Assembly: GCA_004335835.1 (NCBI GenBank)
Contig: RWJK01001498.1
Span: 1,442 to 65,441 of the forward strand
Direction of reading: 5' to 3'
DNA from: Scenedesmus sp. ARA3
Taxonomy: Eukaryota; Chlorophyta; Chlorophyceae; Sphaeropleales; Scenedesmaceae
DNA length: 64,000 bases
Of this stretch, positions 40,187-64,000 are shown piece after piece (within the stretch, counting starts at the first letter, position 1; every line of letters starts with the position of its first letter). The notes under the pieces were generated by a model, which did no database searches, was not told the origin of the DNA, and saw nothing but the letters and a program-made list of their open reading frames with translations. Made by a program: the position numbers and the translations under genes.

Positions 40187-41138
40187 AGATCCCGCTGGGC
40201 TTGTTCATCCTGCTGGACCCTTTCTACAACCGCAACGCCATCTGGGCGCGTGACGACTTCTCCACGCTGGTCATGGCCATCTCAGCCGGCTACTTCTTAT
40301 ACGACACGCTGGAGTGCATGTACCGCATAAAGCACGAGGGCTGGGACTTCCTGCTGCATGGCGTCTTCTGCCTCATGGTCTACAGCTTCCTGACGCACAC
40401 TGGCTACCTGCACTTCTACGGTGAGGGGCGGGCTGCTGCTGATGCAGTGAGCGGAGTAGAGGCAGCAAAGAGCTACACGTACGTGTATGCATACACGACA
40501 GGTATGGAACATGTGCTTGTGAGCATGACTTTCTTTTGGGTATCTGCGCTGGGGGGTTGGGTGGCTTTGCAAAAGCACGCCCAAGACATGCATGATGTTA
40601 GACATGCGATTGTGCAGTGGCGGCGCCAAGGCACCTCGTAGAGCGTCGAGCAGCGATTCGGTGTGTGCTGTGCACATGTGCGATGTTCACTCCTTGGCAC
40701 ACCTGCATGCTCTTTTGGGATGCTGCTGGCAGCTGCTCACTCGCTCTGCCTTGGTGTCCTGCAGGCGCCGGCTTCCTGATGTGGGAGCTCAGCACTCCCT
40801 TCATGCACTTCCGCTGGTTCCTGTACAAGATAGGCAAGGATACCACAAAACTTTACGCATACAACGCCCTGGGAGGCATGGCTGTGTTCTTCCTGTGCCG
40901 CATCCTGTGGGGGAACTTCCTGAGTATCATGTTCTGGGTTGATTCGGTGCGCGTGCTGGCAACGCCAGCAGGTGCTGCGCTGCCCATGTCAGCGATCTGG
41001 GTGTACCGGCTGTCTACTCTGGTGATGAATGGGCTGAATGCGTGGTGGTTCAGCAAGATGATGAAGATCCTGCTGGAGACGGTGCGGGGCAGCAGCAGTA
41101 GCAGTACAGCAAAGGCGGTGACAGCCAAGGCGCAGTAG
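39111..41138 (+). CDS. TLC-domain multipass membrane protein
   Basis: Four exons (39111-39177, 39403-39569, 40189-40420, 40765-41138; phases 1,0,1) give 279 residues. The TLC (TRAM-LAG1-CLN8) domain is a six- to seven-helix fold of lipid-sensing or lipid-handling membrane proteins of the ER and other membranes. Visible features: TM1 around GLAWASLELISYVV; a loop rich in Lys and Gln; RVVCFVHNIIQ, the usual His-containing start of the domain; SAGYFLYDTLECM; DFLLHGVFCLMVYS with the conserved His; WELSTPFMHFRW, the family's ELSTP motif; then two further helices and a Ser/Ala-rich tail ending KAQ. ELSTP with an upstream DxL.H is characteristic of TMEM56/TLCD4-like members, not ceramide synthases. 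Intron 2 ends in CTG repeats abutting the acceptor. Substrate unknown. Confidence 0.88.
40150..40188 (+). repeat. CTG repeat abutting the acceptor of TLC exon 3
   Basis: About twelve CTG/TGC units end in the acceptor CAG at 40188 and replace a conventional pyrimidine tract. Confidence 0.9.
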
Positions 41139-43734: not shown

Positions 43735-45294
43735 GCTGCTGCTGCGAGGCAGAGCTGCTGGCCAGCTGGGCCCATGCCGTTGGTAACTCGTCTGTGCTGC
43801 ATGGCGCACCTGCACCAGACAAGGCTTTGAGGCCACCTGTTACACGTGTCTGTGCGCACAGCAGCATGCTTTTTCGTTACCAAAGGGGACCCATCTCACT
43901 GGCTGGTCACACAGCAGCAGGCTTGTGGATTCCCTGTTACACAGGCTGACACCTTGGTTGAATGGGCAGATATCCAGTCGTGTTGCACACGTTACAGGGC
44001 GAGCAGGTGTCACCTGTTGTGGAAAGGGTGTGTGCTACAGCAGCTCAGCAGCTGATGCATCTGCATGCCAGTTTTGTGTTTGCACACAGCAAGCGGCTGG
44101 CTGAGTGCCGGTGCTGTGAAAGGTGCGACAAGCTGGTTCCGTGCGCCGCAATGCGCACATGCCTGTTTTGTCTGGTTATGAGGAGTGTACTGCTTGATTC
44201 GCTTGCGTTGTTGCTGTGTATGGCGGGAAGATGGCTGGGTGCTGATATGCCCAGGTCCAAAATCAATACTGGTGTTGGGAATTGCATACGTGGTGGTTGT
44301 CAGCATCAACGCGGCTCAGCGGTGGGATCACCTTTGCATTGTGCTTTGACTGCATGGTTGTTCAGCAAGTTGGTGACAATTGCGCTGAACACATTGTGGG
44401 GCAGCAGCATCGGCAGAAGTGGCTGTATAAAGAGTTGCAGCGTGCATGGCTGTGTGGACAGGGCATGCTTCTCTCGAACACACGTACACACTGTGGGACT
44501 TGTTTTCTGGGGAGACTACCAGGGATGGTCTCTGACATGTGTGTTGTTCCAACCACGTGCCAGCATCATGCTGTAGGCTACAGTTGTTGCACAACCGTTG
44601 GCTTTTACACCATCTGGTAAAATAGCCGTCATGCCTCTGATAACCACCACTGATAACCACCATGGACCATCCGAACCATGAACTGCAAGGCAGCTGCAAT
44701 GCCTACGAGATGCTGCCACAGGCTAGGCTACACTCCGCCCTGCAGCTGTGTAGGTGTAGTTATACCCCGGTATTCACAGGGGGCGGTGGGGGCTGCACTG
44801 ACACAAAGCATTCAGCAACGTAGCATGCACCAACGCCTCAATCAATGCATGCTCATGCTGTCGGCCGAGGTGGCGTAGCTATAGGGGCGCGGTGCAGTCT
44901 GCTTGGCTGCTGGCTCACAGCTGTGCGCACCGTCACTGTCGCTGGGCAGCTGACGCAACAACACATGCTTGCGCCTGCACATGCCATTGTCAGGCGTGCG
45001 CGGCTGCACAAACGCAGCATCAACAGCAACACTTGCACGGCTCGACAACCAACTCCTCAGTAATCGGGCCCTCGGGGCCAGACATCAGCATGATGCTGCA
45101 GATCTCTGCAGGTGGTTGGAAACCATGAGATGCCCCAAATGCACACCCTCATCCTGAGCACACTACCTGCCAGCAATCTGCCTTGTGCCCAGCTAGGCAG
45201 CGGCAACAGCAGCAGCATCGGCACATGCGGGCTATCCCTGGTGTACCTTCTAGCCCCACATCATCTGCATCCTGTCAGTAACCACTTTCATAGT
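43735..45294. other. Convergent 3' flanks of the BTB gene and CAND1
   Basis: The plus strand is T/G-rich to about 44600 and A/C-rich after about 44880, so the composition switches where the two convergent transcripts should end. Open frames on both strands lack motifs. No TGTAA was found on the plus strand here. Confidence 0.45.
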
Positions 45295-45940
45295 CACAGC
45301 TCCAATGCCTCGCCCTCCACCTCCTGCAGCTCCGCCTGCGACGCAAGGAACTTGTCTTGCAGCGACGCAGCCATTGCTGCGCTCGAGTAAAGTGATGCCA
45401 CTTGCTCTGACCGTTACTGACAGCTGTCACTTACAGCTCCATGGCCTCGCCCTCTGCCTCCTGCCGCTCCGCCTGTGCTGCCAGGAACTTCTCCCGCAGC
45501 GGCCCGCTCATCACGGTGCGCTTCAGAAAGCCGCAAAGCGCTGCGTGCTGTCAGTTCGAACTGTTACTTACAGCTCCATTGCCTCGCCCTCTGCCTCCTG
45601 CCGCTCTGCCTGTGCCGCCAGGAACTTCTCCCGCAGCGGTCCACTCATCATGGTGCGCTTCAGGAAGCCTCACAGCGCTGCGAGCTGTCAGTTTGAACTG
45701 TCACTTACAGCTCCATGGCCTCGCCCTCTGCCTCCTGCCGCTCCGCCTGTGCTGCCAGGAACTGCAGCGCTCCGGCCACTGCTGCGCTCCAGACAGCCCC
45801 CAAGCACTGCGACACGTTCGTTCTACAACTTCTGCTTACAGCTCCATCGCCTCGCCCTCTGCCTCCTGCCGCTCCGCCTGCGCAGCCAGGAACTTCTCCC
45901 GCAGCGGTCCGCTCATGACTGTGCGCTTCAGGAAGCCTCA
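45295..45940 (-). repeat. Tandem array of copies of the CAND1 last-exon end
   Basis: Five partial copies of the end of CAND1 exon 24 lie downstream of the functional stop: about 45835-45940, 45704-45765 (truncated), 45561-45669, 45428-45535 and a degenerate one at 45295-45360. The period is near 137 bp. Each keeps the codons for AAQAERQEAEGEAMEL or a variant, the stop and about 30 bp of flank. The copies are 85-98% alike by eye, with substitutions, so they are tandem duplications of unequal age. Confidence 0.92.
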
Positions 45941-45972
45941 CAGCGCTGCGAGCTGTCAGTTTGAACTGTTAC

Positions 45973-48900
45973 TTACAGCTCCATTGCCTCGCCTTCTGCC
46001 TCCTGCCGCTCCGCCTGTGCCGCCAGGAACTTCTCCCGCAGCGGTCCGCTCATAACGGTGCGCTTCAGGAAGCCTGTGAAGGGGGCGCTGGCCTCACTGC
46101 CTGGCAGGCGGTTGAGCGCGTCCACGGCGCGCAGGCAGCTGCGCAGCAGCTCCTCGTGGCGGTCAACCTGCGCGGACCACATGTTTGACCAATTGACTTT
46201 GACAGACTTGAACCTGGGCTGCAAGAATAGTGCTGATGGTGAGTTGAGAAACAGATGACGCGTGTGCTGAGGATGCTGAGTTCAAGCAGGACTAGCAGCT
46301 GCAAAGTCTTGAGGCAATGTTGTTGTCTTGTTGTTGTCATGCAGCAGGCGCCTGTGTGCATTCCTGCAGGCACCCGCTGCTCTGCTTGCAGCATCTGCAC
46401 TGTATTGAAACACATCCGTCCCAGCAAGTCAAATCCACTTCTGCTGCAGCCGGTTGCCATGCAAGTCAACCAGCAGCTGCACCACAACCCGCCCTATCGC
46501 GGACACATCAAAACTTTCCGTTTACATCACAGTCATGCAACAAGTGTAATCAATGTGGCTGCCGCCGCACCTCCTGCTTGACTGCGTCGCTCTTGAGCTT
46601 TGCGGTGAGCGTCTTCTCAAGCGGCTCCACCAGCTTGTCCAGCTGGCTCAGCACAGCAGGGCCGCCGCCTGCAGCACAGTGCAGCAACGGTACAGCACAA
46701 GGATTTAAGTGATTGTGTTGGCCTCAAGGCTTGTGCGGCTGGCTCAGCACAGCAGGGCCGCCGCCTGCAGAGTGGGCAACAGCAGTGCAGCACACGAATG
46801 CAATGAACACAGTCACATTGGCTGTCACGGTTTGCCCAGCTGGCTCAGCACAGCGGGGCCGCCACCTGTAGCATGAATATAACACGAATTATGACAAACA
46901 AGAAAGGCAATTTGATATACTTGGAGGCTGTTGCCAGCCCGTTCAGCTGCTGCTGCTGCTTCTGCATGCCTGAGCATGACACAGGACACGCCAAAACTCA
47001 ACAGCCACTGCAACAACCACAACCTCAGGTTCACATATCCACCAGGTCTGACACGCTTCACGCACAACTATGCAGGCAGCTGCTCTTATCCAACCCCACC
47101 TGGGCTTGCTGCCAGCTTGACCAGCATCAGGTGTGCAGGCGCCTTCACATCCTGGTGGTCCTTCAGCCCACTCTCCAACGCTGCCAAAAAGTCCGGCTGC
47201 TGCTGCAGCACGTGTGGCAGCGCCGTGAGCAGGATGTCGAGGCACTCGAAGGCAGCCTTGCGCAGCTCCAGGCCGTCGTCGATGCGGTGCTTGAAGGGGC
47301 CCAGGTCAACCGTGCGGATCTGCATGTTTGACCAGAGTTTGACCGGGTGAGGAAGGGGCAGGGAAAAAGAATGCAGGGCACATGGCAAGCCAGGTGCAGC
47401 ATAGAAGCCAACCAACCAGCAGCAATTTGAGCTGATGACGGATTTCAGATGGACAGGCAGCAGCTGGCACACCACAGAGACAGTAGTTTCACCACGCACC
47501 ATCTCTGGCTTGATTGCTGTCTGGTCGTACAGCAGAGGCAGCAGCTGCTCCAGCCCAGCAGCCACCAGGCCCGGCTTGTGGTGCACCACAGCAGACAGCG
47601 CCACCACTGCCGCCTTGCGCACGTGCCGGTCTGGGTCCTTCATCAGCATGAGGAAGTCCAGCAGGCAGTCCTGCAGGAGAAAAGTAACAGTGTTATAACA
47701 CATTCAAACGCAGATCCAGGCACTTGTGATGTTATCATCTGTAAGCGGCATGGCAACACTGATGTTGATACCTGCATGTGGCATGACACACAGAAGCAGC
47801 GAGCACCTGTCCTGGTTGCAGCAAAACATGGTGGCACACATATGATGATGTGTTGCACTGCACTTTGTGCTGCACAGTTATTGCGCCTCACCTTGAGCAG
47901 GTCATCCACTGGGCGGCGCTTGTCCACCACTATGTACTTGACAGCACCAAACTAACGGTGCAGCTGCAAAAAAAGTAATCGCGGATGCAGGCGTCCCAAT
48001 GTTCTGCACGCACCTTGAGCAGGTCATCCACTGGGTGTGGCTTGTCCACCACCATGTACTTGACAGCGCCAACCACCACGCAGCGCGTGTGCTCGCTGTC
48101 ACTCGACAGCCCTGCAGCAGGCAGCGCAGCAAGCACGTACACGCAGTCAAGCGTCAAGCCGCAACAGCAGCACCCACGCAACGGCAGCTGTCTGTGCGGG
48201 CATGTGCGCAGGCATAAGAACATATCTGTCAGGCACAGCAGCACATACATACAACAGCAAGCGTCCACACATTGAATGGCAGCAGCAGCATACAACAGCG
48301 CGGCTCCACACCTGTGCGCAGCCGCGCCAGCACCTCTGAGGGGTGCAGCAGCGCCAGCCGCCCCAGGCACTCCGCCACCACGTTCCTGCACTCCTCCTCT
48401 GCCCTGCTGCAGGACACCAGCAGGTCCAGCACCTGCTGCACTTGCGCTGCAGGAGAGCACAAAAGAGCAGCAACACAGCAGCAGCGAGCAGACATGAGCC
48501 AGACAGCATGTGATGTGTGCACCAACAGTTTTGAGACGCCTGCTGTGCATGCATGGCGTGGCTGCGAGGCAGCATGTGGCAGTTGACATGCAAGGAACAG
48601 CAGGCACACGACATGCAAGGAACAGCAGACACACAACAGGCATGTATTGCTATCCTGCTTGCATGCATTCATATGCAATCCCTTCGTCAACAACACACTA
48701 CACGTACAAATAGATGAAAGCTACTGCCCCTCACACACCTTCTGTGAAGCCTGCCCGCGTGTCTGCTGCCTTGCGTGCACTGACGGTGGTCACCACCTCG
48801 TTCAGCGCCTGCAGGAAACAGCAGCAGCCAAAGAGACAGCACGTGAGTCACAAGGGTCAAACATGATCACACCGCCCACGCCTATCTGAACGTCTGAACA

Positions 48901-51900
48901 TACATGAAGCACTGCAGTGGCGGCACAAACGTGTAAAGGCAACATCCTGCCCAACATCAACAGTGCCCTGCTCTGTACATACAGGTGTAGTGGCCTGAAT
49001 AGGTCGAAGTGGCGCAATACTTGCAGCTGCCAGCCCCGCGCTGACCAGTCAACGCACCTGCAACAGCAGGTACTGCTGCTTGCTCTGCCCGCTAGCGCCC
49101 TCAATGCTCTGCAGCAGCGCCGGCAGGAAGCGCCCCAGGTTGCCACATGCCACGCCACCCAGAGCCAAGCTTGCTGCTGCTCTGATGTCCTCATTCTCAG
49201 AGCTGAGGGAGGCGTTGACTGCTGACTCAACGTTAGGCGCTGATGAGAGGTCTGTGCGACGGCCGATCTCTCCTAGGCACAGCAGCGCTAGGCGCTGGGA
49301 GGCTGCAAGACAAGGCACATCAGCAGGCAGACAGAGGGTAGGTTACTACATGCCAAAGCAACAGGCGGGCAGGTACACGAGTGGGTGTGCTGCAATCTAT
49401 CCTTGGCACAGACAGCAGCAGAACCTCCGCCATACACACAGCAAACAGCAGCCACCTGTTCCTTCCATTGACTGCAGCTGCATGCATAGCCCACAACCAC
49501 CACCAAATTCACCCACCTTGGTCTGCTGACTTGAGCATCTGCAGCAGCTGCTTCACGGTTGCATCCACCTGCGCCTGCCCAGCCGGCACCACCAGCACCG
49601 CACAGCACTGCGCCACGCTGTGCTGGGCCTGCCGTGCGCTGCCGTCTGTGCTGCCGCCGCCGTCCCGCCTGCCCCTGCCCTCATCGAGCAGTGCTGACAG
49701 TAGTGCTTCTGTCATGGCTGCTGGGGAGCCTGTTCCTGCAAGGGCCGGGAACAGCGCCTGCAGCTCCGCCAGCGCTGCACCCTGCACGCGTTACATGCAG
49801 CACAATAACGACGGTCAAACGACGGTCAAACGCGGTTGGTGGAAGAGTAAGAGAACGCTATACAGGTTGATTGGCATGGGCAAAACAAACATGCCATTGC
49901 TTTATTACAAAACTGCATGCATTCAAATGGCACGTGCACAGAACCTGAGCTGCAGACTCGGGCAGCGCATCAACACTGCTCCAACCAACAGCATCCTCGC
50001 TTCACAAACTTGCATCCTTCACGCCTGCCACGCGACCATGCTGCCTCACCACATCAAAACTTGTCTCACCTGCAGCAGCGGGCTGCGCACCAGCACCAGC
50101 CCTGCCGGCAGCACCCGCTCCACTACACAGGTGCATACGCTCACATAATAGATCATGCTCAATGTAGCATCTGCAGACCGCTAGCGCACCAGCACTGCTC
50201 GCACAGAGTGCATTCTCGCCGCCTCAGATTTGCTTTTATCTGCACGCTTGCCAAACCATATCAGAACTTTTCTCACCTGCAGCAGCGGGCTGCGCACCAG
50301 CACCAGCCCAGCAGGCAGCACCCGCTCCCATACACAGGTGCATACGTTCACAAAATGGATCATGCCCTCATTGCAGCATCTGCAAATCGCCAGCGCATCA
50401 GCACTGCTCACACAGGGTGCATCCGTGTTGGCCTCAAAAATGCTTTCATCCCGCACGCCTGCACGCAACCACGCTGCCCCAACCAAACCCTAACATACAT
50501 TTCACCCTCACCTGCAGCAGCGGGCTGCGCACCAGCACCAGCCCAGCAGGCAGCATCCGCACTGCTCCAACAAAGCACCAAGAGTACCAGCACGCCACCA
50601 CGCTACCCCAGTATACATAAGCCAGTCGCGCTCACCTGCAGCAGCGGGCTGCGCACCAGCACCAGGACAGCAGGCCGCACCCGCTCCACCACACAGGTGC
50701 ATACGCTCACGAAATGGTTCATGCCCCCATGTACCATCTGCAGGTTGCCAGCGCATCAGCACTGCTCCCAAAGGCGGCCGCGTCAGGTTTGCTTTCGTTT
50801 TGCACGCTGCCCGCGCCAAACCATAACATATAATTTCTCACCTGCAGCAGCGGGCTGCGCACCAGCACCAGCCCAGCAGGCAGCACCCGCTCCACGACCT
50901 GCTGCGCCACTGCCGGCTGCTGCCGCAGCAGCGTCACCGCCAGCTTTAGGCTCAGCGCCGCAATCGACAGGTCAGCGTCACTGATGAGGCTTGATGACTC
51001 AGCCAGCAGCGCGCTGGTGCCTGCAGGATCCAGGGATGGGCCGTATTTGGCTACCAAGGCTTCTAAAGCTGCCAATGCTGCTTGGCGCAGCAGGCGGTTG
51101 GCCTTTCGCAGGAAGCTGGTGAGCTCAGCCTGTTGGTGAGATTGGTGAGGTATAATATGCGGCAAGCAAACGAGAGGGTGAGTGAAATGGTCCTGTGGAG
51201 TTGCAGGTGTGGCAAGCGGCATCACACGGTGCCTGCAAGGCAGCAAAAATGGCCAGTGATGTGGTGCAAGGGTTGATGAGCGCTGCTTGGGAGATTCCGG
51301 CTGTTCCCAGCACCCACCCAGCACCGTGCAATTCTCTTGATATGCTGCCAGCTGTGATGCTGCACCACCAGGCTATCATTGAAGAGCTGTAGATGCATGG
51401 GACAAACAGCTTGAACTGTTGTTGTACAAACAAACAAGGTTGCAAGCAGGCACCAACTAACAATCACCGGCTCCAGTGCGCTGTCCAGCCCCAGCTCCAG
51501 CTGCAACTGCGTGCTCAACTTCAAACCTGATCCACTCACAGCCTCACAAACTCCCTATCTTGTGGTGCCAGCTGCAGTACTGTGGCTGTGCCACCAGGCT
51601 GTTCCCAGCCTGTATGAATGCAAAGTGTTGCGTTCGCTGTGTGAAACCAACTGTGAAGAAAGCCGCACTCACAATGACCGGCTCCAGTGCGCCGTCCAGC
51701 CCCAGCTCCAGCTGAGACTGGGCCAGGATGGCAAAGCCCTTCACAGCGGGCAGCCGGGTGATCTCGTTGCGCAGCCGCTCCAACAGCAGCTTCAGCACAC
51801 CAGGCACCTGCAGCAGACGATGTGATGCTGAACATGAATCATGGTGGCGATAGTGGAGTGATATCATTGTCTGGGTCGCTGACAACCACTTGCTTGTTTG

Positions 51901-54900
51901 CAATTGTCGCTGACAACCACTTGCTTGTTTACAATTGACAAGCAGCAGCTTCAGCATGCCAGCGACCTGCAGCACACGATGATTGTTAATTTGTGATGAT
52001 GGTTACGAGGGTGATCTTGCTGCGCAGAAGCACCAGCAGCAGCTTCAGCACACCAGGCACTTGCTCCTCCTGTTGCGCTGACTCAGCCAACCCACCTCAG
52101 CTGACAGCAGGTCCCCGAAGGTTGCAACCACATGAGCCATGCACAGGATGGCACACTCCTTGACCTCCCGATCTTGTCTGCACGCTCAAGCCCCTAACTA
52201 AATGTAATGTATGCTGCCTTGACACGCACCTCAGCTGACAGCAGGTCCCCGCAGGCTGCCACCAAATGGGACATGCACAAAATAGCACACTCCGTGACCG
52301 CCTGGTTCTCTCTGCACATTCGAGCCCATGCCTAACTATGAAGCATGCCGGCTCAGCCAACCCACCTCAGCTGACAGCAGGTCCCCGCAAGTTGCCACCA
52401 AATGGGCCATGCACAGGATTGCACAATCCTTGACCTCCTGGCCTTCTCTGCCGCCTCGAGCCCAGAATATAGCTACAAATGAAGAATGCTGCCTCAGCCA
52501 ACGCACCTCAGCTGACAGCAGGTCCCCGCAGGTTGCCACCAGATGAGCCATGCACAAAATTGCACACTCCTTGACCTCCTGGTCCTGGTCCTGTGCTGCC
52601 AGCCGCCCATTGATGCAGGAGAACATGCCAGCCACAACAGGCGCCAGCTCGGGGGCTGTTGGGGCGGCCGGGTTGGGCCGGATGACTGACACCATCTGCT
52701 CACACACCCGCAGCGCCTCGGCGGCGACCTGCAAACATGTACAGACATGTACACATGATTTCAGCTCACGCGCAGCTGCGCTGTTTAAGCTTCAATAGGG
52801 TGAGTGTTGAACAGTGCTCTGACAAAAAGGGTGCCGAGGACGCGCTTCAACACACCTATCCAGTTCTTATGTGAGGCACTGCTAAACAGCGCAACCAATC
52901 CACCTTGTAGTAGCGCTCCCCCACTGCCGCAAGCATGTAAATCATTCAGTAACTGACACGGTAGCACACGTTATTCTATGTCCCGGCAGCTGTACAAGCG
53001 CTGCTGTGTGCAGGCGCCTACCTTGTAGTAGCGCTCCCTCACTGCCGCAAACACGCCGCTGCGCAGCTGTACTTGCACCAGCTGTCAGGCGCTGCAGCAG
53101 GTGTGTGCAGCCTCGCTCAAACCCTCAACCCTTACCTTGTAGTAGCGCTCCCCGACTGCCGCAAACACGCCGCTGCTGAGCTGTGCAACGTGCTGCTGGA
53201 ACACTGGGGGCGCGTTGCTCTCCATGGCAGCCCGCAGGAATGTGAGCGCCTCGATTTTGAGGCTGCTGCTGCTGGCTGACTTGTCCTTGCAGGCCAGCAG
53301 GATGCCTGCGGCAGAGAATGTAGGGACAGCAACCATGCGCGGCAGTGTTGCAGCGGGAAACAGAGTCAAACATAACCTCTACAGCAGCTTAGAGGCTGCT
53401 GCTGCTGGCCGACTTGTCCTTGCAGGCCAGCAGGATGCCTGCAAGAGAAGAAAGTAGGGACAGCAGCCACGCGCAACAGCATTTTGATGGGAAGCACAAC
53501 GAAACAGAATGGCATGAATGGCATTGAAGCACCATACTATTCATGCTGTAACGTTGCTCCAGCCTACAGACGCAGCCGTGCGGAATGCCAGCACTGGATA
53601 CACTTTTAGAATTTATGTTTCAAGAGGACATACAGCCAGTGATATCAGGCAACTGCTGGTTCACCAAGCTTAATGAATGCTGCAGTCCTCCCTCCCCAAG
53701 AGCAAGTGCAGCATGTACTTGGAGGCGCAAATTGCAGTCAGTTGAGTCAGCAACTACTCGCATTGCGAGTTGTGGCCGGCTCAGCGACTGCAAACGGTGC
53801 CTCCCAAGTACATGCTGCCCTTGCTCTCCCATAAACACCGCTTAGTTCACTGCTATCCCAATATCGTATTGACGATTGTTGTACACACCTGGCACCAGCA
53901 TGCCCACATGGTCGGGCACACTGCCTGTATGGCACACTCCTCCTGCAACTTTGTAATCAACAGTAACATGAAACTAACACCCACCTGGCACCAGCATGCC
54001 CACATGGTCGGCCACACTACCCGGCAGCAACCCAACCAGTGAGCGCAACACGGTGGACATGCCCATGCGCGGAAGGACGAATGGACATAAGTACCATGGT
54101 AGACATCACCAAGATGACATAACAAGATGACAGCGTCATCAAACCCGTACTCACTTGCAACACCTTAACAATGACAAGATGGCATTATTGTCTCATCCAC
54201 AGGATCCTGTGGATGAAACAATGATGCCTCCTTGTCTTTGATGAGCTGCCGCAATATAGTATGGGCTTGATGACGCTGATCATGTTGGTCATACAGCCAC
54301 CCTACCTGGCACCAGAGCATGCCCACAGTCACATTGCCCGGCAGCACCCAACCAGCGTGCCAGCACCGTAAACATGCCCATGCGCAATTCGAAAACAGAA
54401 TAAGGTAGCATGGCAATGATGGCCAAGATGACACACCAAGATGACCAGGGTGGTTGTATGACCAAAATAACCAGCGTCATCAACCCCATACTCACTTGCA
54501 ACACCTCATCGTAACAAGATGACACAATGACGCCATTGTCGCACCTAGTTATTGATCAAGTGTCACAAGTCAGTAAGGGCTTGACGGCGCTGGTTACCTT
54601 GGTCATACCACCACCCTACCTGGCACCAGAGCATGCCCGCATGGACGGCCACACCTGGAAGCACGCCACCGGCGTGCACACAGCACAGTGCCCATTGAAG
54701 TCCGCTTCCACACAAGATCAACAACAACAATCGACACGATGAATGCGCGGCACCCACCTGGCACCAGCAAGCCCACGTGGTCGGCCACACTGCCTGGCAG
54801 TACACCAACCAGTGTGCGCAGCACGGTGAACATGCCCATGCGCGTCTTGAAGATTCAAAAACAACAACCATGCATCGAGCATCCACGCTGCATGGATGCT

Positions 54901-57159
54901 GCAGCTTTGTGTGAAATGCTGCAACCCACTCACAACATGAAACAACCTGGCAAAATAACACCCACCTGGCACCAGCATGCCCACATGGTCGGCCACGCTG
55001 CCCGGCAGCACACCAACCAGTGTGCGCAGCACAGTGAACATGCCCATTCGAGTCTTGGGTGACTTATCGGCCAGCTGCCTTGCTGCTGCCTTGAGCATGG
55101 GGCCCACGTCGCGCAGCAGCAGCTGCAGCGGGCTGGCAGGGTCGGTGGCATCATAGCGACCCGACACGATGCCAACCTGCAGCAATGACAGGTAAAAAGG
55201 CTCACAAAGAGTGCGTCCACGTGTCACAACAGCTGTCACAACAGCTGTAGCGACGGCCAGTGCAGTTGTCACTTTGATGATCTGACCGCAGGGCCGGCAG
55301 TTACCGGGTCTGACATCATCGTCTAAGAAGCCCTTCGGCGGCAGCGGCAACAATGAGGCGCAGGAATCGATCCACGCGTCTACGGCTTGCTGTGGCAAGG
55401 GCAGCTGTGAAGCCCGTCAAACCTGAGTGCACGGCAGCCAACCTGCAGGAGGAGTGCGCAACACAACAGCTGCTGCAAATAGCCGCCCTGACAAAACTGC
55501 ACCACGAGACTTGCCCCAGCAGGTCGCAGTAGAGGCAAACGCGCTCCCAACAGAAACAGCAACGTCCGCTCCCCCCATGCACAGCTACGAAGCTGCAGCG
55601 CCTCACCTGCCGCAGCAGGTCGCAGTAGGCTGCAAATACGTCCGCCTTTACGTTCTCCTCGCGCTCCCGGAAGCGCGCCACCAGCTCCCCAGCTGCCTTG
55701 CTGTAGATGTCTGCCAGCTGGTCGGGGTAGGCGTGCACCAGCGCCGACAGCAGCTTGGCAGCAGCCCTGCAGCATGGCCATCAAAGCAAAGATACCTAGA
55801 GGACATAGACAGTATGAGCGGTGTGCAGAACGAACAGTGCACCAGCTCTGACAGCAACTTGGCCGCAGCCCTGCAGCACAGCCAACACAGCATGGGGACT
55901 TGAGAAGTGCAGCAAGTGCAGGCTGTGCAATTACAGAAGTGCACCAGCGCTGACAGCAGCTTGGCAGCAGCCCTGCAGCACAGTGGACACAGCAGGTGGA
56001 ACTGAGGCGGACACAGCATGGGCACTGTGCGAATCGAGCAGTGCACCAGCGCTGACAGCAGCTTGGCAGCAGCCCTGCAGCATAGCCAACATAGCACGAG
56101 GACTTGAGAAGTGCAGCAAGTGCAGGCTGTGCAGGAGCACAGCCCAGAGCAGACAGCAGCTTGGCGCCAGCCCTGCAGGTAACACAGCATAAGGACTTGG
56201 GAAGTGCAGCAAGTGACATGGTGCAATGCAAAAAGGCACTCGGCAGCGCAACAGCAGCGCAACAGGGTCAGCCGTAACAAAAGCATTAATGTGCACGCAT
56301 TTCTCAGTCATCCAGTGTTGTGCAGCTGCCGCAGAGGAGTGTCTGCGCGGGCTTTACCCTCACCTGCGCACTTTCCAGCTCATGTCCTCGTCATCGCTGT
56401 ACTCTTCTTCGCTGCCATCATCATCGTCTTCGCTGCCGCCCTCACCACCATCCTCATCCATGTCGTCAGCAGCTGCAGCAGCACACAGGGAGGCAGTACA
56501 AGGCAGGCAGTACACGACAAGTGTTGTGAATTCAGGTGAGAAGTCGCTGCTGCCCTCACCACCATCCTCATCCATGTCATCAGCAGCTGCAGCAGCACAC
56601 AGGGGGAAGGGGGCGTTCAAGGCAGGCAGTGCACATGAGTTAAGGTGTGTGTGGTGCTTTGCCGCCATCCTCATCCATGTCATCAGCAGCTGCAGCAGCA
56701 GGAGGGAAGGCAGGCAGTACACCAGACAGGCAGCGCAGAAGAAAGTGCGTAAGGCAGGCGATGCGCAAGACACGCATTACATATGGCAGACAGTCCGTAA
56801 GGGAGGCAGTATGTGAGGCGGGCAGTACTCAAGGAAGGCAGTACATTGACAGCAGCTCAGCGCAGGCTTATTAGGTTTTCAGAGTTTCATTCATGGGTTC
56901 ATGGTTCATCAGCTTCACTGTGTAACCTTGACAGACGAACCGCGTGCTCACCGTAGTTGGGGTCGTACTTGATGTAGCGCAGCGCCTCCGCCAGCAGCTG
57001 CTCCAGGAAGGGCCGCGCATCAGCAGGCGAGCGCGACACAAAGCTCTCCAGCGCCTGGCCAGCAGCAGAAGCAGCAGCAGCAGCAGCACGGTCAGTGAAG
57101 ATGCAAATTAGTGAGCTCAGGAGGCCTAAAGGTACGATAACACCAGTGTCACCAAATGC

Positions 57160-57191
<32 letters not shown>

Positions 57192-60100
57192 AAGGATGCT
57201 GCTGCAGCAGGCAGACTCGCTGCGCCCCAGATTTTTGGGCTTGCCAGCAACCACCCGCAAATTGAAAACATTGCTAACACTGTGCGCAATCCTCGATGAG
57301 CCATGACGTACTGCTGCAGTTGAGCCCTCTTCAACCCTGCACATGTACCTGCAGCGCATACTCGCGCAGCTCCTCATCTCCTTCTGCTGCCTGCTGAACA
57401 CACACACTTCACAGCCATGTATGTTACATTTAGGCCTCAGGCAACACCCCTGACTGCAGATACAAAAAGCCCTTTCCCGCACCTGCAGCGCATACTCGCG
57501 CAGCTCATCATCACCCTCCGCTGCCTTCTGGCCGTACTGCACCATCAGCGGCACCGCCTGGGTCAGGTGACGGCCAAACCTGCGGGCACACAGGCGGCAG
57601 CGGGGACACAACGGTTTGCACAGCTGGACAGGCATGCGGCCTTCTATCCGCACTGTATCATACGCGGCACCGCTTCGGTCAGGTGGCGGCCAAACCTGCA
57701 AGGCAAAGGGTGCAGGCGTGCTCGGGGACACAAGGTTTGCACAGCTGGACAGTTGCGCGGCCTACAGTGCCAGCGCCTGACACCATGCTTTCAGGTGCTA
57801 AGCTGTCGATGTGTTTGTCCTGCAAACCGAGGACATGCCATGCACTGCTACGTGACACACACAGCACCTTGCAAGGCCAGCAGCCAGCCCTGCACTTTGC
57901 ACAATCATATGTTTGCACCGGCAACACGCACCTGTAGCCCACTGCCTTGCTGAGCGCGCCCACACACAACAACTGCCCACTAACGACACCTGCCAACTCA
58001 GCAGTCGGCTCTACACACCATGATGTCCTAACCACGCTTACCTGTATCCCACTGCCTTGCTGAGTGCCCCCACTCCCTGCACATAGCTGCGTGCTGTGTC
58101 GGGCTTGAGGGCGCCTCCCTTCAGCTGGCCCAGCTTGTGCTGAGCCACTGCATCCAGCTGCGCATCAGACAGGCATGGAGACAGCGCACCTGCTTGCACG
58201 CAGCAGCAGCAGCAGCAGCAGCAGCACATGTTAGGTGCAATGGCAGCCAGCTAGCTTGTGCTGAGCAACTGCATCCAGCTGCGCATCCGACAAGCACGGC
58301 GACAGCGCACCTGCAGCAGCCGCCGCCGCCGCAGCAGCAGCAGCGCATGTTAGATTGGACAAACGGACACAACACAGTTTCCAACGTTAGTAGCGCTACA
58401 GCTGCCGCATGCCACACGTATGCAGCGCAGCGCACGCTTGCAGATGCCCTGCCTGCTGTCACTCCCTGAACACTACTACCACGTTTCCTACATCAGCATG
58501 CTAACTGATGCTGCATGCCCACCTATGCAGTCCAGCGCGCGCTTGCGGATGCCCTGCCTGCTGTTGCTGCCTGAACACGATAACCGCTATATGCACACCC
58601 AATCAGCCAACTGCTGCAACCTGTGCGCACCTATGCAGTGCAACGCGCGCTTGCGGATGCCCTGCCTGCTGTCGTCCAGGTATGGCTGCAGCAGCTGCAC
58701 GATGGTGGCGTGCTGCTCCGGCAGCAGGTGCCCAAACTTGGCCACCACGTCAGTCAGGATGTCCAGGCTGTCCGTGAGCACCTCAAAGTTGTCCTGACAG
58801 CAGCAGAGCGCATGCAGGAGATACACAAAACATATCCGTTGAGAGCCACTGATCGCTTGAGTCAGTAGTAGTACCAGTCTAAAGTTTTTGACGAGTGTTT
58901 AAACAGGCCGCAATACAGCAGCCTCTGCTGGTTTGTGGGTACAAACAGAATCAACTCATGCAACTGTTGGCAGCGGCTTCCGACCCTGCCAGCACCCGCT
59001 CACCTTGTGCATCACTCCATCCAGCATGCAGCTGCAAATCAGCGGCTGTGGAGGCAGGGTGAATGGCTGTGGAGGTAGGGTGAAGTACAGCAGAACCCAC
59101 CAGCCAGTGGGCGTCGATTGACTGACTTTCTCACTGTCACCAGACTGATACTTCCAAGCGCCACCCCCTCACCTTCTGCGTCACACCGTCCAGCATGCGG
59201 CTGCAGATCAGCGCAGCAGCAGGGTGCGCCAGGCTGCCGCCCGCCACCTCGATCACTGTCTTCAGGCCAATGCTCGCAATGTCCCTGCTGCTGCTGTCCT
59301 TCTTGGAGGGAGCCGCCACCTTTTCGCAGAGGCCTTTGACTAGCTCCATCACGCGCGCCTCACCAACCTTGCGCACCAACACGCCGAGGCTGCGGCAGGC
59401 AGCAGGCAGCAGCAGCGGCAGCAGCAGGGATATGCATTTCCAGGATTGCCTATTTCGTAGTACCAAAGAAGAGTAGATCAAACACGGCGAAGAGACGACG
59501 CTGGTGTCCAACATGTATTGCCGCCACAAATGCATGCATTACTTGTGTCATGGCTGCAGTGATATTTGCACCAAACAAGACGCTGCGAATGAGCATCAGC
59601 AGCAGCTCAGCAGCAGCTGCTGTCATGACAAGCTAACTACTACTGCACCAGGACAGCTGCGAGGCGCACCACTTGACCGTCAGCCCCAGACATGCTTTGC
59701 AGTCCCTACAGTTGTATGGGTTTACATTTCACATGCACCATCACCACCCCTCAGCCGCACCACTTGACCGCCAGGCCTGAGATGTCGCCGCTCTGGTCCT
59801 CCAGCTGCACTGCCACCACATTGCACAGCTTGCGCTCCAGCTCAGGGTCCACCTACACATGACAAAATAACAAGCAACATAACAGCACAAGGTGCCAGCA
59901 ATGACGTCAACACATGTCTAATGAAGCGTCAAATGAATCGGCAACACGAGGGAAGGCTACTTTTGATGTGATCTTTCAAGTGAAATGCCTTCATTGGCGC
60001 TATTGCAAGGCGATGCACGGGGTTGTGCAATTCTCAGCTCCATGCAGCAGCACCAGAGAACTCTCGTGCGCTCCCTGCTGCTGGCGCGGCCACCCTGGGA

Positions 60101-60933
60101 GTGACAGCTTACAGCAGCAAGAGCATATGTCTCGTGATGCCTGCTGCCTGCACGCTGCTGCGCTGCTCACTGCACGCCTGTAAGGCTGCTGATAGCTCTG
60201 CTGCTGCTGCTGCTGCCTAGCTGCTGCTGGATGCTGCTGGTCACCTGGAAGGTGTCTTTGCTGAGCTCATTGAGCAGGTCAGAGGTGGCCATGTAACGGA
60301 AGTCCTTGTCCTTGGAGGCCACCTGCAGCAGCAGCAGCAGCCCAGCCAGTGCCTCCTGTTACATTTGCTGGTTCATAGGCAGGCTTGCTGTATGGCATGC
60401 TGAGACTGCTTGCCGCACCTGTGCATGTTCATGATCAGTTCCAAGCATTCAACTCGTGAGTGCGACTGTCAGGCAGGGAGTAGCAGTACAACAAAATGCG
60501 CACGATGCCATACCATGTGCAAGGATCGTGTCCATGCTGTGCAGCTGCAGACTTGCAATAATTGCACCCCATTGAACCTTGAAGCGACCCAGCAACTGAG
60601 ATGCTTTCTGACATAACCACGAACTAACAACTGAGATGCTTTCTGACATCAAAAGTCAAGTACATGATGCTGCATGTGGCGGGTGCTGCTGCCATGGACG
60701 CTGCTGCTGCCACGTCTTGCTGTTGCAGCAGCATGGCAAGCCTGGCACAACCTAAATGAACCAATCAAAAAACATTGCACATGCAGAGTATGACCGCTGT
60801 CACGGGGGTGTAGCTCTGGGTGTCCCGAGCCACCAGAAACAACTGCTGGATCCTCAGGCGGGGCAGTCTACAGACACCATGAACGTGCGCTGCTGACCTT
60901 CTCCAGGATCACGTTGATCGCTGCCGCCGACAT
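45973..60933 (-). CDS. CAND1: CAND1, cullin-associated NEDD8-dissociated protein
   Basis: Twenty-four exons, all phase-compatible, give 1241 residues, the family's length: 60933-60898, 60322-60245, 59852-59761, 59389-59173, 58793-58631, 58189-58042, 57579-57483, 57054-56952, 56472-56364, 55766-55607, 55176-54966, 53305-53136, 52728-52507, 51807-51673, 51129-50842, 49781-49517, 49302-49058, 48808-48739, 48446-48312, 48111-48014, 47670-47500, 47319-47100, 46668-46571, 46167-45973. CAND1 is a HEAT-repeat solenoid that wraps unneddylated cullin-RBX1 and exchanges F-box and other adaptors. Hallmarks in order: KDKDFRYMATSDLLNELSKD (N-terminus), DIASIGLKTV, GALSKAVGYRFG, the acidic DEDGGEGGSEDDDDGS loop before DDEDMSWKVRR, FREREENVKADVFAAY, LKIEALTFLRAAM, AAVGERYYKV, AQDQDQEVKECAI, RNEITRLPAVKGFA, FLRKANRLLRQAAL, LALLCLGEIGRR, RNVVAECLGRLAL, VDLGPFKHRIDDGLELRKAA and the C-terminal RHEELLRSCLRAVDALNRL. 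The protein looks intact. Introns hold about 35 partial copies of flanking exon ends. Confidence 0.97.
46732..46872 (-). repeat. Echoes of the 5' end of CAND1 exon 23
   Basis: Two partial copies (46732-46770 and 46836-46872) of the acceptor plus the first 25-30 bases of exon 23 (GGGPAVLSQL region) lie in the upstream intron. Confidence 0.85.
47888..47952 (-). repeat. Echo of the 3' end of CAND1 exon 20
   Basis: One copy of the last 55-60 bases of exon 20 (VKYMVVDKPHPVDDLLK region) with its GTGAG donor lies in the downstream intron, about 90% alike by eye. Confidence 0.88.
50064..50690 (-). repeat. Four echoes of the 3' end of CAND1 exon 15
   Basis: Copies near 50631-50690, 50507-50560, 50271-50329 and 50064-50124 repeat the last 45-55 bases of exon 15 (VLPAGLVLVRSPLLQ) with an intact GTGAG donor. 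Parts of the intervening intron are also repeated, so the units are tandem duplications of exon end plus intron. Confidence 0.92.
51459..52068 (-). repeat. Echoes of both ends of CAND1 exon 14
   Basis: One copy of the exon's 3' end lies at 51459-51512 downstream. Two copies of its 5' end lie at 51939-51972 and 52033-52062 upstream. A separate 35-bp direct repeat (GCTGACAACCACTTGCTTG type) sits at 51870-51940. The functional exon is 51807-51673. Confidence 0.82.
52091..52450 (-). repeat. Three echoes of the 3' end of CAND1 exon 13
   Basis: Copies at about 52361-52450, 52226-52312 and 52091-52180 repeat the last 80-90 bases of exon 13 (EVKECAILCMAHLVATCGD region) with the donor, at a spacing near 135 bp. 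Confidence 0.92.
52900..53442 (-). repeat. Echoes of both ends of CAND1 exon 12
   Basis: The 5' end with acceptor is copied at 53381-53442 upstream. The 3' end with donor (AAVGERYYK region) is copied at 53018-53075 and 52900-52938 downstream. The functional exon is 53305-53136. Confidence 0.9.
53886..54850 (-). repeat. Five echoes of the 3' end of CAND1 exon 11
   Basis: Copies at about 54757-54850, 54610-54695, 54296-54385, 53986-54075 and 53886-53935 repeat up to 90 bases of the exon end (MGMFTVLRTLVGVLPGSVAD region) with a GTGGGT-type donor. Divergence differs between copies, so they arose at different times. They fill much of the 1.66-kb intron. Confidence 0.92.
55503..56182 (-). repeat. 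Echoes of both ends of CAND1 exon 10
   Basis: Four copies of the acceptor plus the first 35-45 coding bases (AAAKLLSALVH region) lie at about 55838-55882, 55936-55982, 56037-56085 and 56137-56182, upstream. One copy of the 3' end lies at 55503-55545, downstream. The functional exon is 55766-55607. Confidence 0.92.
56547..56702 (-). repeat. Two echoes of the 5' end of CAND1 exon 9
   Basis: Copies at 56547-56600 and 56658-56702 repeat the CTG-rich acceptor and the first codons (ADDMDEDGGEG) of the acidic-loop exon. Confidence 0.88.
57347..57700 (-). repeat. Echoes of both ends of CAND1 exon 7
   Basis: The 5' end is copied at 57650-57700 and the 3' end (GDEELREYALQ-like) at 57347-57400. The functional exon is 57579-57483. 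A CTG tract at 57163-57192 lies further into the downstream intron. Confidence 0.88.
57925..58318 (-). repeat. Echoes of both ends of CAND1 exon 6
   Basis: The 5' end with acceptor (ALSPCLSDAQLDAVAQHKL region) is copied at 58249-58318. The 3' end with donor (GALSKAVGYR) is copied at 57925-57975. The functional exon is 58189-58042. Confidence 0.9.
58416..59690 (-). repeat. Echoes of the 3' ends of CAND1 exons 5, 4 and 3
   Basis: Exon 5's end (RQGIRKRALHCIG region) is copied at 58520-58567 and 58416-58460. Exon 4's end is copied at 58999-59045. A short copy of exon 3's end lies at about 59660-59690. Each sits in the intron just downstream of its source exon. Confidence 0.85.
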
Positions 60934-61389
60934 TTTGAGGAGCCGATTGGTGTCTGTGCTACGCCTGGCTGTTCCCTTTCAGCACATGAATTCGCCCGAG
61001 GCCCAGTCTCTGGCCTCTGTCGGGCTCAGCTGCCACAAGTTCGTCTCAGACGTCTTTGAAACGTCACAACTGTCTTTAAAGTGTGGCAAAAAACGTTGAT
61101 CCTGTCCTGTATTTGAATTAGCGAGCGTACGCAAGAGCACGGACGCGCTCAATTGATCACAAACCTAATGGATGTCTTTCCCACTGCCTTCAAACCCCTT
61201 GATTCTCTTCAATGAGCGTCGCCAAGGCATCGGGTAGGCATTCGCGGCACTTCGACACCTCAAACCCTTGCGCAACAGGCAACGCAACATTGCTATAAAT
61301 AAAATTCTTACTTCCTTTGATGGTTTTGTCCCTGGTCCGACGCAGCTGTACAGTACTGCTCTTGGCCCCACCTGGTCACTAGTAGTGGC
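60934..61389. promoter_or_regulatory. Divergent CAND1/RBCX promoter region
   Basis: The two start codons are 456 bp apart and point away from each other, so both promoters lie here. No coding exon is supported; a plus-strand frame open across 60914-61099 overlaps CAND1 exon 1 in antisense and has no motif. Confidence 0.55.
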
Positions 61390-63561
61390 ATGATTGCCGC
61401 ACGTTGTTCCGTGGTGCCTTGCCATAGACCTACTGCATGCCTTAACTGTCATCCATGCACTCACCCAGCGAGCTACAGCAGCAGCACAAGCAGGAGACCA
61501 AGTGGCTTCACCCTTCAAGCTGTCGCACGCACTGCTTACAGGTCTGGCCCACCTCAATGCCACAGACAGCATTGTATAGGCGTCAGGGCCAGTCGGGCCA
61601 CATGCATAATGTGCTGGTGCTGGCGTCATCAATAGCAGCAGCATTTACTTGTTCAAGCAGGTACTGCAGTGTGGCCAGTGCCGCACTGGGCCTGCTGCAC
61701 GTGTTGCCCTCAGCCATCCTTCAGTTAGCAGCTTGCATGCCAGCGCACATCTTATCTGTGGCAAGATATGCTGGAAGTATCATGCACAGCTCGCACTAGC
61801 CAGCAGCAGCAGCGACAGCAGCAGCAACAGCAGCAGCAACACGCAGCTCACCCGACTGCTGCCCGCTGCCGCTGCTGCAGCTACGAGACGCAGCGCCTGC
61901 TGAAGACGCTGCTCACGCGCCAAGCTGTCAAGACAGTGCTTAACTACCTGAGCGAAACAAATGGCGAGCTGCACTTTTTCCTGCATAACTATCTGTCAGA
62001 GCACCCGCTGCCACTCGCAGGTGTGGGCAATACAGCAGTGGCCTACACACAGCGTCACATGCGTTATGCTGAATGATTCGCAGCAGATGCCTAGTTGACA
62101 AGGCTGTTAGCCGTGTACTTTAAGCACGTGCTTTCTACTGCTGCTTGGTTTGCTTGCAGGATGGACTGATGCAGATGCCTGGCTAGTGGATCTGGCCAGC
62201 AGCTCCTTCAGCCAAATCTGGCAGCTGTGACGTACCTGCACACCGCATCAGCATTGCATGTCTGCATGCACTGTCCTGCTGGTCGCTTGACTTCATCTGC
62301 TTGTATTCTGTTACAAATCTGTGCTGCTGGCATTGCAGGAGAGACTGATGCAGATGCCTGGCTGGTGGAGCTGGCCAGCAGCCCCTTTTCAGCATGTCTA
62401 CCACACCTGCATACCGCATCAGCAACACTGCAGGCGTGCAGCCTGCATGCATTGCCCTGCTGGGCTCGTGACCTATTTTGCTTGAGTTGTGCTGCGATCT
62501 GCTTGCATTGCAGGGGAAACTGATGCAGATGCCTGGCTAGTGGAGCTGGCCAGCAGCCCTTACACTACTGTCAGCGACCCGCGGCGCAGCAGCGTGCCGA
62601 CGGTTGCAGCCAAAGCAGTTGTGATGCAGGGCGAGCGTGCGGTCAGCCCCAGGTGCGTGCCACGAGGGTCATGCTGCACATGCTGACCATGTTGGTGGTG
62701 CTGTGCAGCCGAACAATGGTTGAGATGCGGCTGATCCCGGAATCATGAGGAGAAGGCGGAAGCAGCTGTCTGTACTCCAGCATAGCGCGTCTGCTGAGCT
62801 TCACATGCCTGCCAGCTTCATCATTTTGCTGCAGCCCATGCCGCTGTGCCTGCTCTGCCGCAGGGACGTGGCTGACCGCATCAGGGGCCTGCGTGAGCAC
62901 AATGCTCAACAATTGCGCCACATTGCTGCTGAAGCTAATTGATTAGTGCTCCCGTGCCGCTGTGCCTGCTCTGCTGCAGGGACGTGGCGGACCGCATCAA
63001 GGGCCTGTCTCAGCATATTGCTCAAGAACTGCGCCATGTGGCTGCTGAACCCAACACGATGATGCACCCATGCCGCTGTGCCACATCACTCTGCTGCAGG
63101 GACGTGGCGGACGGCATCATGGGCCTGCTTGAGCACAATGCTCAAGAACTGCGCCATGTTGCTGCTGAACCCAACACAATGATGCACCCGTGCCGCTGTG
63201 CCGCATTATTCTGCTGCAGGGACGTTGCGGACCGCATCATGGGCCTGCGTGAGCACAATGCTCAAGAACTGCGCCATGTCGCTGCTGAACCCAACACAAT
63301 GATGCACCCGTGCCGCTGTGCCGCATTATTCTGCTGCAGGGACGTTGCGGACCGCATCATGGGCCTGCGTGAGCACAATGCTCAAGAACTGCGCCATGTC
63401 GCTGCTGAACCCAACACAATGATGCACCCGTGCCGCTGTGCCGCATTATTCTGCTGCAGGGACGTTGCGGACCGCATCATGGGGCTGCGTGAGCACATCG
63501 CGCAGGAGATGCAGGAGGAGCTGGGGGCCATACACGGCGCCAACAGCGACGTCAACCGCAG
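61390..63561 (+). CDS. RBCX: RbcX, Rubisco assembly chaperone, chloroplast precursor (3' end unresolved)
   Basis: Four exons (61390-61541, 61881-62020, 62514-62652, 63460-63561; phases 2,1,2) give 178 residues and exit in phase 2 towards a last exon I could not fix. RbcX is a helical homodimer that binds the RbcL C-terminus and helps the Rubisco large subunits assemble in the chloroplast stroma. Residues 1-50 are Ser/Arg/Thr rich with few acids (MIAARCSVVPCHRPT start), a plausible transit peptide. The core follows: TQRLLKTLLTRQAVKTVLNYL, then ETNGELHFFLHNYLSEHPLP, ETDADAWLVELASSPYTTV, MGLREHIAQEMQEELGAI and NSDVNRR. This matches the family order (YQAVRVVxxQLxETNPxxxxWLxxF; REHLAEE). Introns 2 and 3 contain extra copies of the starts of exons 3 and 4; the last copy of each is taken as functional because only it extends to a proper donor. 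Confidence 0.9.
62160..62400 (+). repeat. Two extra 5' copies of RBCX exon 3
   Basis: Copies starting at 62161 and about 62340 repeat the acceptor and about 45-60 bases of exon 3 (TDADAWLVELASS). The first has Asp for Glu and soon reaches a stop. The second loses similarity after SSPF. Surrounding intron sequence is also repeated. Confidence 0.9.
62850..63459 (+). repeat. Five extra 5' copies of RBCX exon 4 (120-bp units)
   Basis: Copies begin at 62864, 62980, 63100, 63220 and 63340, each after a perfect CTGCAG or CCGCAG acceptor, with the functional copy at 63460. The last units are almost identical over 120 bp. As 120 is a multiple of three and no stop intervenes, all the later units read in one open frame, giving repeats of RDVADRIMGLREHNAQELRH. 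Confidence 0.95.
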
Positions 63562-64000
63562 GTGGGCAGGGAAGGCATCAAATATGTTGCTGCAAGACAT
63601 TACCATTATTGCTACCATTCTTATTGTGGGCGCATCATGCTACCCTGATGCATAGCCAGATGACGCAGAAAAGGAAAACGCAGGAGGAGCTGCGCGCCAT
63701 ATATGGCACCAGCGGTGACGTGAGCCGCAGGTGGGCTGCCGCAGCGCTGTTGACAGAGACTTTGCATTGTACATGTAAGCAATGGACCGAAGCGGGCGTC
63801 AAAATGATGTTTTCCACTGGGATCAAAGGTTTATGACACGCTGCGTGTGTGCCAACAGGGCCTGCCAGGCATCATACCTGCTGCTGCCAGGCACCTTCAG
63901 TGTGCATACATGCAGCATATGCTGCTGGTGCATGCAGGTCTCATGGTCAGCCAGTTTGAGGGCTGCTTGTTAGGAAGAGCACAATGCGCTGCTTGACTGC
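63562..64000 (+). other. RBCX intron and possible terminal exon
   Basis: A partial copy of the 3' end of exon 4 (EELRAIYGTSGDVSRR) with its GTGGGC donor lies at about 63681-63735. A possible last exon begins after the acceptor at 63858 (RACQASYLLL, stop at 63971-63973); another after the acceptor near 63938 is in a different phase. Neither is convincing. Confidence 0.4.

Follow-up and report, generated by a model that had tools for sequence, protein, structure and literature searches.

In a window of 64,000 nucleotides (nt) of the green alga Scenedesmus sp. ARA3 (contig RWJK01001498.1, positions 1,442 to 65,441), the introns of the CAND1 gene are populated by partial copies of the ends of their own neighboring exons. 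We refer to such a copy as an echo, that is, a copy of an exon end located in the adjoining intron or, in the case of the last exon (exon 24), in the 3' flank. The phenomenon is real and extends past CAND1, and the arrays of echoes, their polarity and their link to intron length are well supported. We consider it rather more probable than any other account that the arrays arose by recurrent tandem duplication across splice junctions and that the copies were then kept by selection.

Exon-End Echoes in CAND1

CAND1 occupies positions 45973–60933 of the window on the minus strand (a correction of strand with respect to a preliminary description of this DNA). Its exons were derived from translations and then fixed as a model of 24 coding exons and 1241 residues, with all introns bounded by GT-AG. 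The protein shows 94–98% identity to Tetradesmus/Scenedesmus CAND1, with 96–98% identity to two UniRef entries from Tetradesmus obliquus, both of which contain extra residues, and 94% identity to the protein of Scenedesmus sp. NREL 46B-D3. These values place the source of the DNA in T. obliquus or very near to it.

A self-BLAST of positions 44000–61000 gave 58 pairs, 51 direct and seven inverted. With each exon as the query, at an expectation value (E) of at most 1e-4 and within 1600 nt, we detected 39 echoes, 27 of them copies of 3' ends and 12 copies of 5' starts, with every 3' copy downstream of its exon and every 5' copy upstream; widening the search to 9000 nt on each side yielded no additional echoes. 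At E ≤ 0.01, 46 matches were obtained, 39 of which came to no more than 2 nt from an exon end, all 39 with the expected polarity, while the remaining seven were short partial or exon-to-exon matches. The preliminary description, which had noted about 40 copies, those of 3' ends downstream and those of 5' ends upstream, thus holds in both number and orientation. The exons with echoes are 4–7, 9–15, 20, 23 and 24. Fourteen of the 15 exons named earlier are therefore retained, and exon 3 is dropped, as it gave no echo at E ≤ 0.01 when used as the query. Fifteen of the 21 local tandem families in the window fall in the CAND1 region (45.2–59.2 kb), and exon-end families in this gene number 19.

Echoes beyond CAND1

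Two chaperonin genes were modeled in the same manner of detail, CCT1 (locus L041, C1492:1500-11499) with the T. obliquus protein P0121 (12 exons, with a run of N truncating the last) and CCT5 (locus L043) with the T. obliquus protein P0241 (13 exons, after removal of one echo that P0241 includes as an exon). At E ≤ 1e-4, CAND1, CCT1 and CCT5 yielded 39, 38 and 27 echoes, respectively, a total of 104, with no match discarded for exon overlap. An exon end was reached by 91 of these and none had the wrong polarity; the other 13 reached neither end and were located on the side of the nearer one. Across the 49 exons of the three genes, arrays are found at 26 3' ends and 23 5' starts, i.e., at roughly one exon end in two.

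In nine further chaperonin loci (the CCT5 locus, C1032, not among them), splice sites were placed by score and reading frame only, blind to echoes. Seven of these loci contained 65 echo matches, 17 at placed 3' ends, nine at placed 5' starts and 39 elsewhere, none of them on the wrong side. A profile search with the chaperonin model PF00118 gave 86 exon-level rows, of which 85 were analyzed and one, a lone contig, was left out. Partial matches recurred beside the full exon in this search, twelve times in all. In six cases the longer match is shared at its C-terminal end only, and these repeats are located downstream; in one it is shared at its N-terminal end only, upstream. Two repeats have both ends in common with the longer match (echo versus echo) and sit upstream. 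The remaining three, found downstream, agree with it at neither end to within four positions. A search with HSP70 returned five repeated N-terminal-end matches, all upstream (counted by eye).

Tandem families are present in ten of the 11 chaperonin loci (3–11 each, 69 in total; none at C837), and nine arbitrarily chosen 10-kb regions, unannotated and with families not tied to exons, contain 25 (0–7 each). Among these 94 families, 79 have a smallest period of 80–160 base pairs (bp). At the CCT1 locus, open frames of 704–929 codons span exon-intron arrays, an extent estimated to be too long for chance at the base composition.

Array Architecture and Intron Length

In the three modeled genes, adjacent copies are spaced 90–382 nt apart (median 130.5 nt, n = 104), with 79 spacings in the range of 80–160 nt and none below 90 nt, a minimum for which no cause was found. 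The exon stubs measure 21–103 nt (median 53.5 nt), close to the approximately 25–100 nt described earlier, the copies differ by 0–23% with codon and splice-site structure, and arrays reach up to six copies. Copies within one array can have a common inner edge, as for CCT1 exon 10 (nt 65–67 in all five 3' copies), which fits a single initial duplication with subsequent growth of the array. Tandem Repeats Finder (TRF) reported periods of 102–137 at CAND1 exons 10, 13 and 24, i.e., tandem arrays of imperfect units. The intron flank is still alignable in several families (exons 9, 10, 13, 15 and 24) and, as the intron part aligns in those of exons 13, 15 and 24, the unit is an ordinary tandem duplication. 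Echoes are thus copies in tandem that comprise the stub, the junction and, in some families, the intron flank, in agreement with the recurrent tandem duplication near splice junctions that had been proposed at the outset.

Arrays occupy 4986 of 11235 intron nt in CAND1, 5553 of 8331 in CCT1 and 3800 of 7717 in CCT5, together 14339 of 27283 (53%). The 33 array-bearing introns have a median length of 622 nt, which falls to 236 nt when the arrays are removed, while the median of the 13 array-free introns is 263 nt (with versus without arrays, p = 2.5e-6). Longer introns also offer more space for arrays; the residual length of 236 nt, near that of array-free introns, argues that the introns grew by arrays, a route of intron growth that the preliminary description had considered.

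Splice Signals and Coding Content of the Echoes

For the codon and donor/acceptor counts, CAND1 exon 24 was excluded because it ends at the stop codon, which biases the result towards constraint, and echoes ending before the junction were not counted. As the echo search used exon sequence only, it did not select for donors. Nevertheless, GT was retained in 44 of 46 3' echoes of the three genes and G at position +5 in 40 of 46, while AG was retained in 35 of 40 5' echoes, so that the splice signals are indeed kept, as previously noted. The share of 3' echoes that differ was 0–4% at positions –6 to –1 and 2–4% at the GT, followed by 26% at +3, 39% at +4, 13% at +5 and 50% at +6. The 17 3' echoes of the nine other loci all have GT and a purine at +3, 13 of 17 have G at +5, and 35%, 24% and 71% differ at +4, +5 and +6, respectively. 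Median donor scores were 9.8 for echoes, 10.2 for real donors and –2.8 for other intronic GTs, and 76% of echo donors, compared to 5% of the background, scored above the lowest tenth of real ones. Median acceptor scores were 9.1, 10.6 and –1.3 for echoes, real acceptors and background, respectively. Echo donors and acceptors thus score near real ones, giving substance to the idea that the introns are loaded with decoy splice sites.

The stubs also differ from their surroundings and from freely drifting sequence. In 28 echo-echo pairs of CAND1, stub identity was 0.79–1.00, while the adjoining 50 nt of intron were at most 0.70 identical in 21 of the 28 pairs (unrelated introns: median 0.60, upper 5% 0.66–0.70). 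Of 401 distinct exon-echo differences in the three genes, 163 (41%) were nonsynonymous. A base-matched calculation predicts 70% for freely drifting echoes and 54% where silent sites of the exon drift as well; even against the weaker bound of 54%, the deviation has a p value of 1.6e-7, although such p values are optimistic, as copies within an array share history. In addition, the resemblance of 3' echoes to the exon peaks over the final 12 nt (2.9% different, compared to about 10% at 24–47 nt). Simulated search bias gives 6–11% in the last 12 nt for a true divergence of 8–15%, and thus explains this gradient only partly. The pattern at donor positions and the nonsynonymous share are unlike free decay, in support of the hint of constraint noted earlier; a splicing-linked origin, the other reading raised there, is conceivable. 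Judged from sequence comparison, simple neutral decay would seem to fit the copies poorly, and the evidence favors, short of proof, that their splice-site strength and coding content are maintained.

Echo Sequence in Database Proteins

Echo sequence is present in four T. obliquus database proteins. In P0002, the CAND1 exon-7 echo forms an insert of 14 residues, and P0001 continues past the end of CAND1 exon 13 as far as its first echo. P0123 is a second CCT1 form with the same locus tag as P0121, in which nine extra residues match an exon-10 echo, and P0241 includes a 15-residue exon-11 echo in CCT5. The inserts of P0002, P0123 and P0241 are absent from aligned orthologues. Prediction error is likely for some of these four records; gene predictors appear to have been misled by echoes, with three T. 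obliquus proteins bearing inserts, and annotations of T. obliquus may hold more such false or alternative exons.

Proposed Origin and Maintenance of the Arrays

Based on the tandem geometry, we suggest that segments of about 90–160 bp straddling an exon-intron junction were duplicated head to tail, repeatedly, at about half of the exon ends in the three genes and, in other loci, at numerous ends as well. Splicing would continue to use the outermost exon end, and an exon stub with its splice site would be left inside the intron; with the outermost end in use, every event lengthens the intron. Further rounds could then build arrays of up to six copies. Afterwards, the intron part of the unit would decay, while the exon stub and the splice consensus positions would be kept better than free decay allows, leaving copies that could act as full-strength decoys or as occasional alternative splice sites. 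The outcome would be long introns (median about 620 nt with arrays, about 260 nt without). Purifying selection on at least some copies, via a role in splicing, is the most likely cause of their retention that we infer.

The principal alternative is duplication that is neutral throughout, with survivorship, in which events of about 120 bp occur anywhere, those that reach an exon persist only with a junction, and the conserved exon keeps its copies visible, as exon and copy diverge half as fast as two intron copies. Such a process explains polarity by geometry, and it agrees with the flanks that are still alignable in several families and with the echo peptides, which show no slow change relative to database proteins. 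However, in a simulation of random duplications of this size, 35–64% of detectable families would be wholly intronic. In CAND1 and CCT1, the two genes covered by this test, we saw no clear intron-only family beside 19 end-families and about two beside 17 end-families, respectively. Only two of 66 CAND1 pairs avoid exons and echoes, both of them located in introns with exon-end arrays (introns 11 and 15), and the CCT1 figure is a reading of 11 of 69 pairs, mostly short and of low complexity. Moreover, neutrality does not readily account for stubs that remain 0.79–1.00 identical beside flanks at or below 0.70, for consensus donor positions that are retained while +4 and +6 vary, or for a nonsynonymous share of 41% where 54–70% are predicted; we regard it as rather unlikely. 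The scarcity of intron-only families may reflect the age of the arrays, with nothing but maintained stubs left to see, instead of mutation directed at junctions. Anchoring is largely a matter of geometry plus selection, because an exon-reaching duplication survives only with a junction and a usable outermost end. As the flanks are near-random, intron-only families of the same age would be invisible, and the notion of mutation targeted at junctions was withdrawn as unproved.

Gene conversion, with the exon repeatedly overwriting its echoes and tracts ending where the flanks have diverged, would suit some stubs, among CAND1 exon 15 and CCT1 exon 8 copies, in which identity extends over 52–68 nt while the adjoining flanks differ clearly. 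Yet conversion alone should leave about 70% nonsynonymous differences (by reasoning, not by computation) rather than 41%, and a tract is unable to keep +5 while skipping +4, so that we deem this account improbable. Still less credence is due to the idea that echoes are mainly cassette mini-exons adding short in-frame repeats to the protein. The inserts in P0002 (+14 residues), P0123 (+9 residues, locus tag shared with P0121) and P0241 (+15 residues) speak for it, but the inner stub edge lacks a consistent acceptor, aligned orthologues lack the inserts, and the database inserts may be gene-prediction errors. Well-formed cassette exons as a general explanation were dismissed for want of a consistent inner splice site, and frame-preserving read-through was likewise rejected, as offsets are mostly not multiples of three and stops are met in 41 of 46 cases.

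An origin in assembly artefacts or in a dispersed intron-creating transposon (introner) is hardly credible. The assembly is fragmented (87.27 Mb searched, 1567 contigs), but the copies differ by 0–23% with codon and splice-site structure, which speaks against this account, and echo peptides in other T. obliquus records make an artefact unlikely; on the latter ground we ruled it out. In a search of the genome that skips very common words, the CAND1 exon 13 and exon 15 arrays, the two tested, matched only at their own place, i.e., they are not dispersed, ruling out an introner or other dispersed repeat for these arrays.

Several observations weigh against duplication followed by selection. The preference at +5 is less clear outside the three modeled genes, with 24% of echoes different in the nine other loci as against 13% in those genes. 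Two 5' echoes of CCT1 exon 5 end in GG, with the AG lost, yet are 95% identical to the exon, and five CCT1 3' echoes stop before the junction yet are 81–95% identical. The offset from the real junction is a multiple of three in just 17 of 46 3' echoes and nine of 40 5' echoes, and read-through to the echo donor meets a stop in 41 of 46 cases, which leaves most echoes unable to contribute useful protein. The inner stub edge is only mildly enriched in YAG (2.08 versus 1.31 per position, 31 echoes), indicating that most 3' echoes are not complete exons. Echo peptides differ between this sequence and the database T. obliquus proteins at four of 63 residues (counted by eye), as free drift allows. 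Finally, the chaperonin loci C837 and C1552 gave no echo match, and C837 (L045, C837:15500-21000) is a chaperonin gene without any tandem family, a natural control for genes that escape.

Given the stops on read-through and the lack of a second splice site in most 3' echoes, any use of an echo would mostly spoil the transcript. It is conceivable, though we put it forward only tentatively, that the arrays constitute a genome-wide, selected layer of decoys, in which copies are held at full splice strength and echo use, by introducing an early stop, makes the transcript degradable. Introns would then be adjustable brakes on expression, their length set by the number of decoys per exon end.

Inventory of CAND1 Echoes and Neighboring Features

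All CAND1 echoes lie on the minus strand and are given here in the order of the exons. The 3' end of exon 4 has one echo at 59004–59044 (85% over 41 nt, donor GTGAGC), and that of exon 5 has two within 58419–58564 (58523–58564 and 58419–58460; 95% and 90%). Exon 6 has an echo of its 5' start at 58253–58310 (91%, acceptor CTGCAG) and one of its 3' end at 57932–57963 (91%, donor GTGCGT). For exon 7, the 5' start echo lies at 57636–57695 (82%, acceptor TTGCAG) and the 3' end echo at 57349–57396, the peptide of which is the 14-residue insert of P0002. Two echoes of the exon 9 5' start are found at 56544–56689 (95% and 93%) and four of the exon 10 5' start at 55837–56172 (86–97%, CTGCAG in all), with a short, weak echo of the exon 10 3' end at 55512–55532 (21 nt, E 1.7e-4). 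Five echoes of the exon 11 3' end, at 53889–54849, reside inside the 1660-nt intron 11 (77–95%). Exon 12 is represented by one 5' start echo at 53389–53438 (96%, acceptor TTGCAG) and two 3' end echoes at 52904–53070 (92% and 94%).

Three echoes of the exon 13 3' end, the first of which is reached by the read-through in P0001, extend over 52096–52441 (TRF period 136), and four of the exon 15 3' end over 50070–50692 (93–100%), both arrays unmatched elsewhere in the genome. Between them lie the exon 14 5' start echo at 52009–52060 (88%, acceptor AG lost) and the exon 14 3' end echo at 51462–51509 (92%, donor GTTAGT). Further on, one exon 20 3' end echo is located at 47892–47950 (92%, donor GTGAGG), two exon 23 5' start echoes at 46729–46863 (94% each) and, in the 3' flank at 45296–45938, five copies of the exon 24 end (84–95%, TRF period 137), four of which contain the whole stop codon. 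The CAND1 stop codon itself is embedded in a motif resembling a donor (GTAAGT across CTG TAA GT, 45971–45976, minus strand). With this motif at the stop and the 3'-flank copies deriving from that end, an intron in the 3' untranslated region may be possible.

Intron 11 also contains three imperfect palindromes of about 130–170 bp (53699–53827, 54123–54287 and 54447–54617); a search with 54100–54620 gave no matches other than those inside this intron or next to it. A further tandem array, with a 120-bp unit in 5.4 copies, lies at 62827–63736. An open reading frame across it matches the SKP1 dimerisation domain (summed fragmentary match, E 1.4e-9, with no single stretch passing), and the array is possibly an exon-end array of a neighboring SKP1-like gene. 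Elsewhere in the window, there are ankyrin-repeat (14077–14886, minus strand), septin (30107–30904, plus strand) and TLC-domain (39847–40641, plus strand) reading frames.

Relation to Known Systems

Intronic minisatellites are head-to-tail arrays of imperfect units, and echo arrays resemble them in being tandem and built of imperfect units, as seen by TRF. They differ in that nearly every CAND1 or CCT1 array holds an exon end with its splice site, so that position is tied to junctions. Duplicated, mutually exclusive exons are complete, with acceptor and donor, whereas echo stubs carry one splice site and no consistent second. Gao and Lynch reportedly described, in 2009, internal gene duplication and intron creation with duplicates that include splice sites, larger than the partial exon ends seen here.

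The closest known system, as far as the accessible parts of the sources go, is intron gain by tandem duplication across an intron-exon boundary (PMC4974935), in which a boundary-crossing tandem duplication likewise moves splice signals to new positions. There, however, a single event creates one new intron, while echoes are found at about half of the exon ends in three genes, often in multiple copies, and leave the reading frame unchanged. Fill-in of staggered breaks by CST/Pol alpha-primase yields short tandem duplications (PMC8355091) and offers a mutational path to short head-to-tail duplications; in the sections available, these are insertions of less than 100 bp with no described link to splice junctions, while echo spacing is at least 90. 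Introners multiply intron-associated sequence and are reported chiefly from rapidly evolving lineages, green algae being an example (PMC9860276). They form dispersed, near-identical families over many genes, while each of the two echo arrays tested is confined to the vicinity of its own exon.

In the open-licence literature searched, we found no description of exon-end arrays. The accessible text of a gene-structure study of a related alga (PMC8780407) makes no mention of them, and the word "intron" occurs zero times in either of two genome papers on these algae (PMC12571836 and PMC5255914). The mean intron length reported for T. obliquus is 462 bp, compared to 230–302 bp in four further green algae, R. 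subcapitata, M. neglectum, C. zofingiensis and C. reinhardtii (PMC5966456). That report attributes the larger T. obliquus genome to non-coding DNA and, in the portion available, names no mechanism. If exon-end arrays are genome-wide, intron growth would become countable event by event. The arrays would also amount to a natural experiment on splice-site choice, with many duplicated exon ends among which the spliceosome must select the outermost copy.

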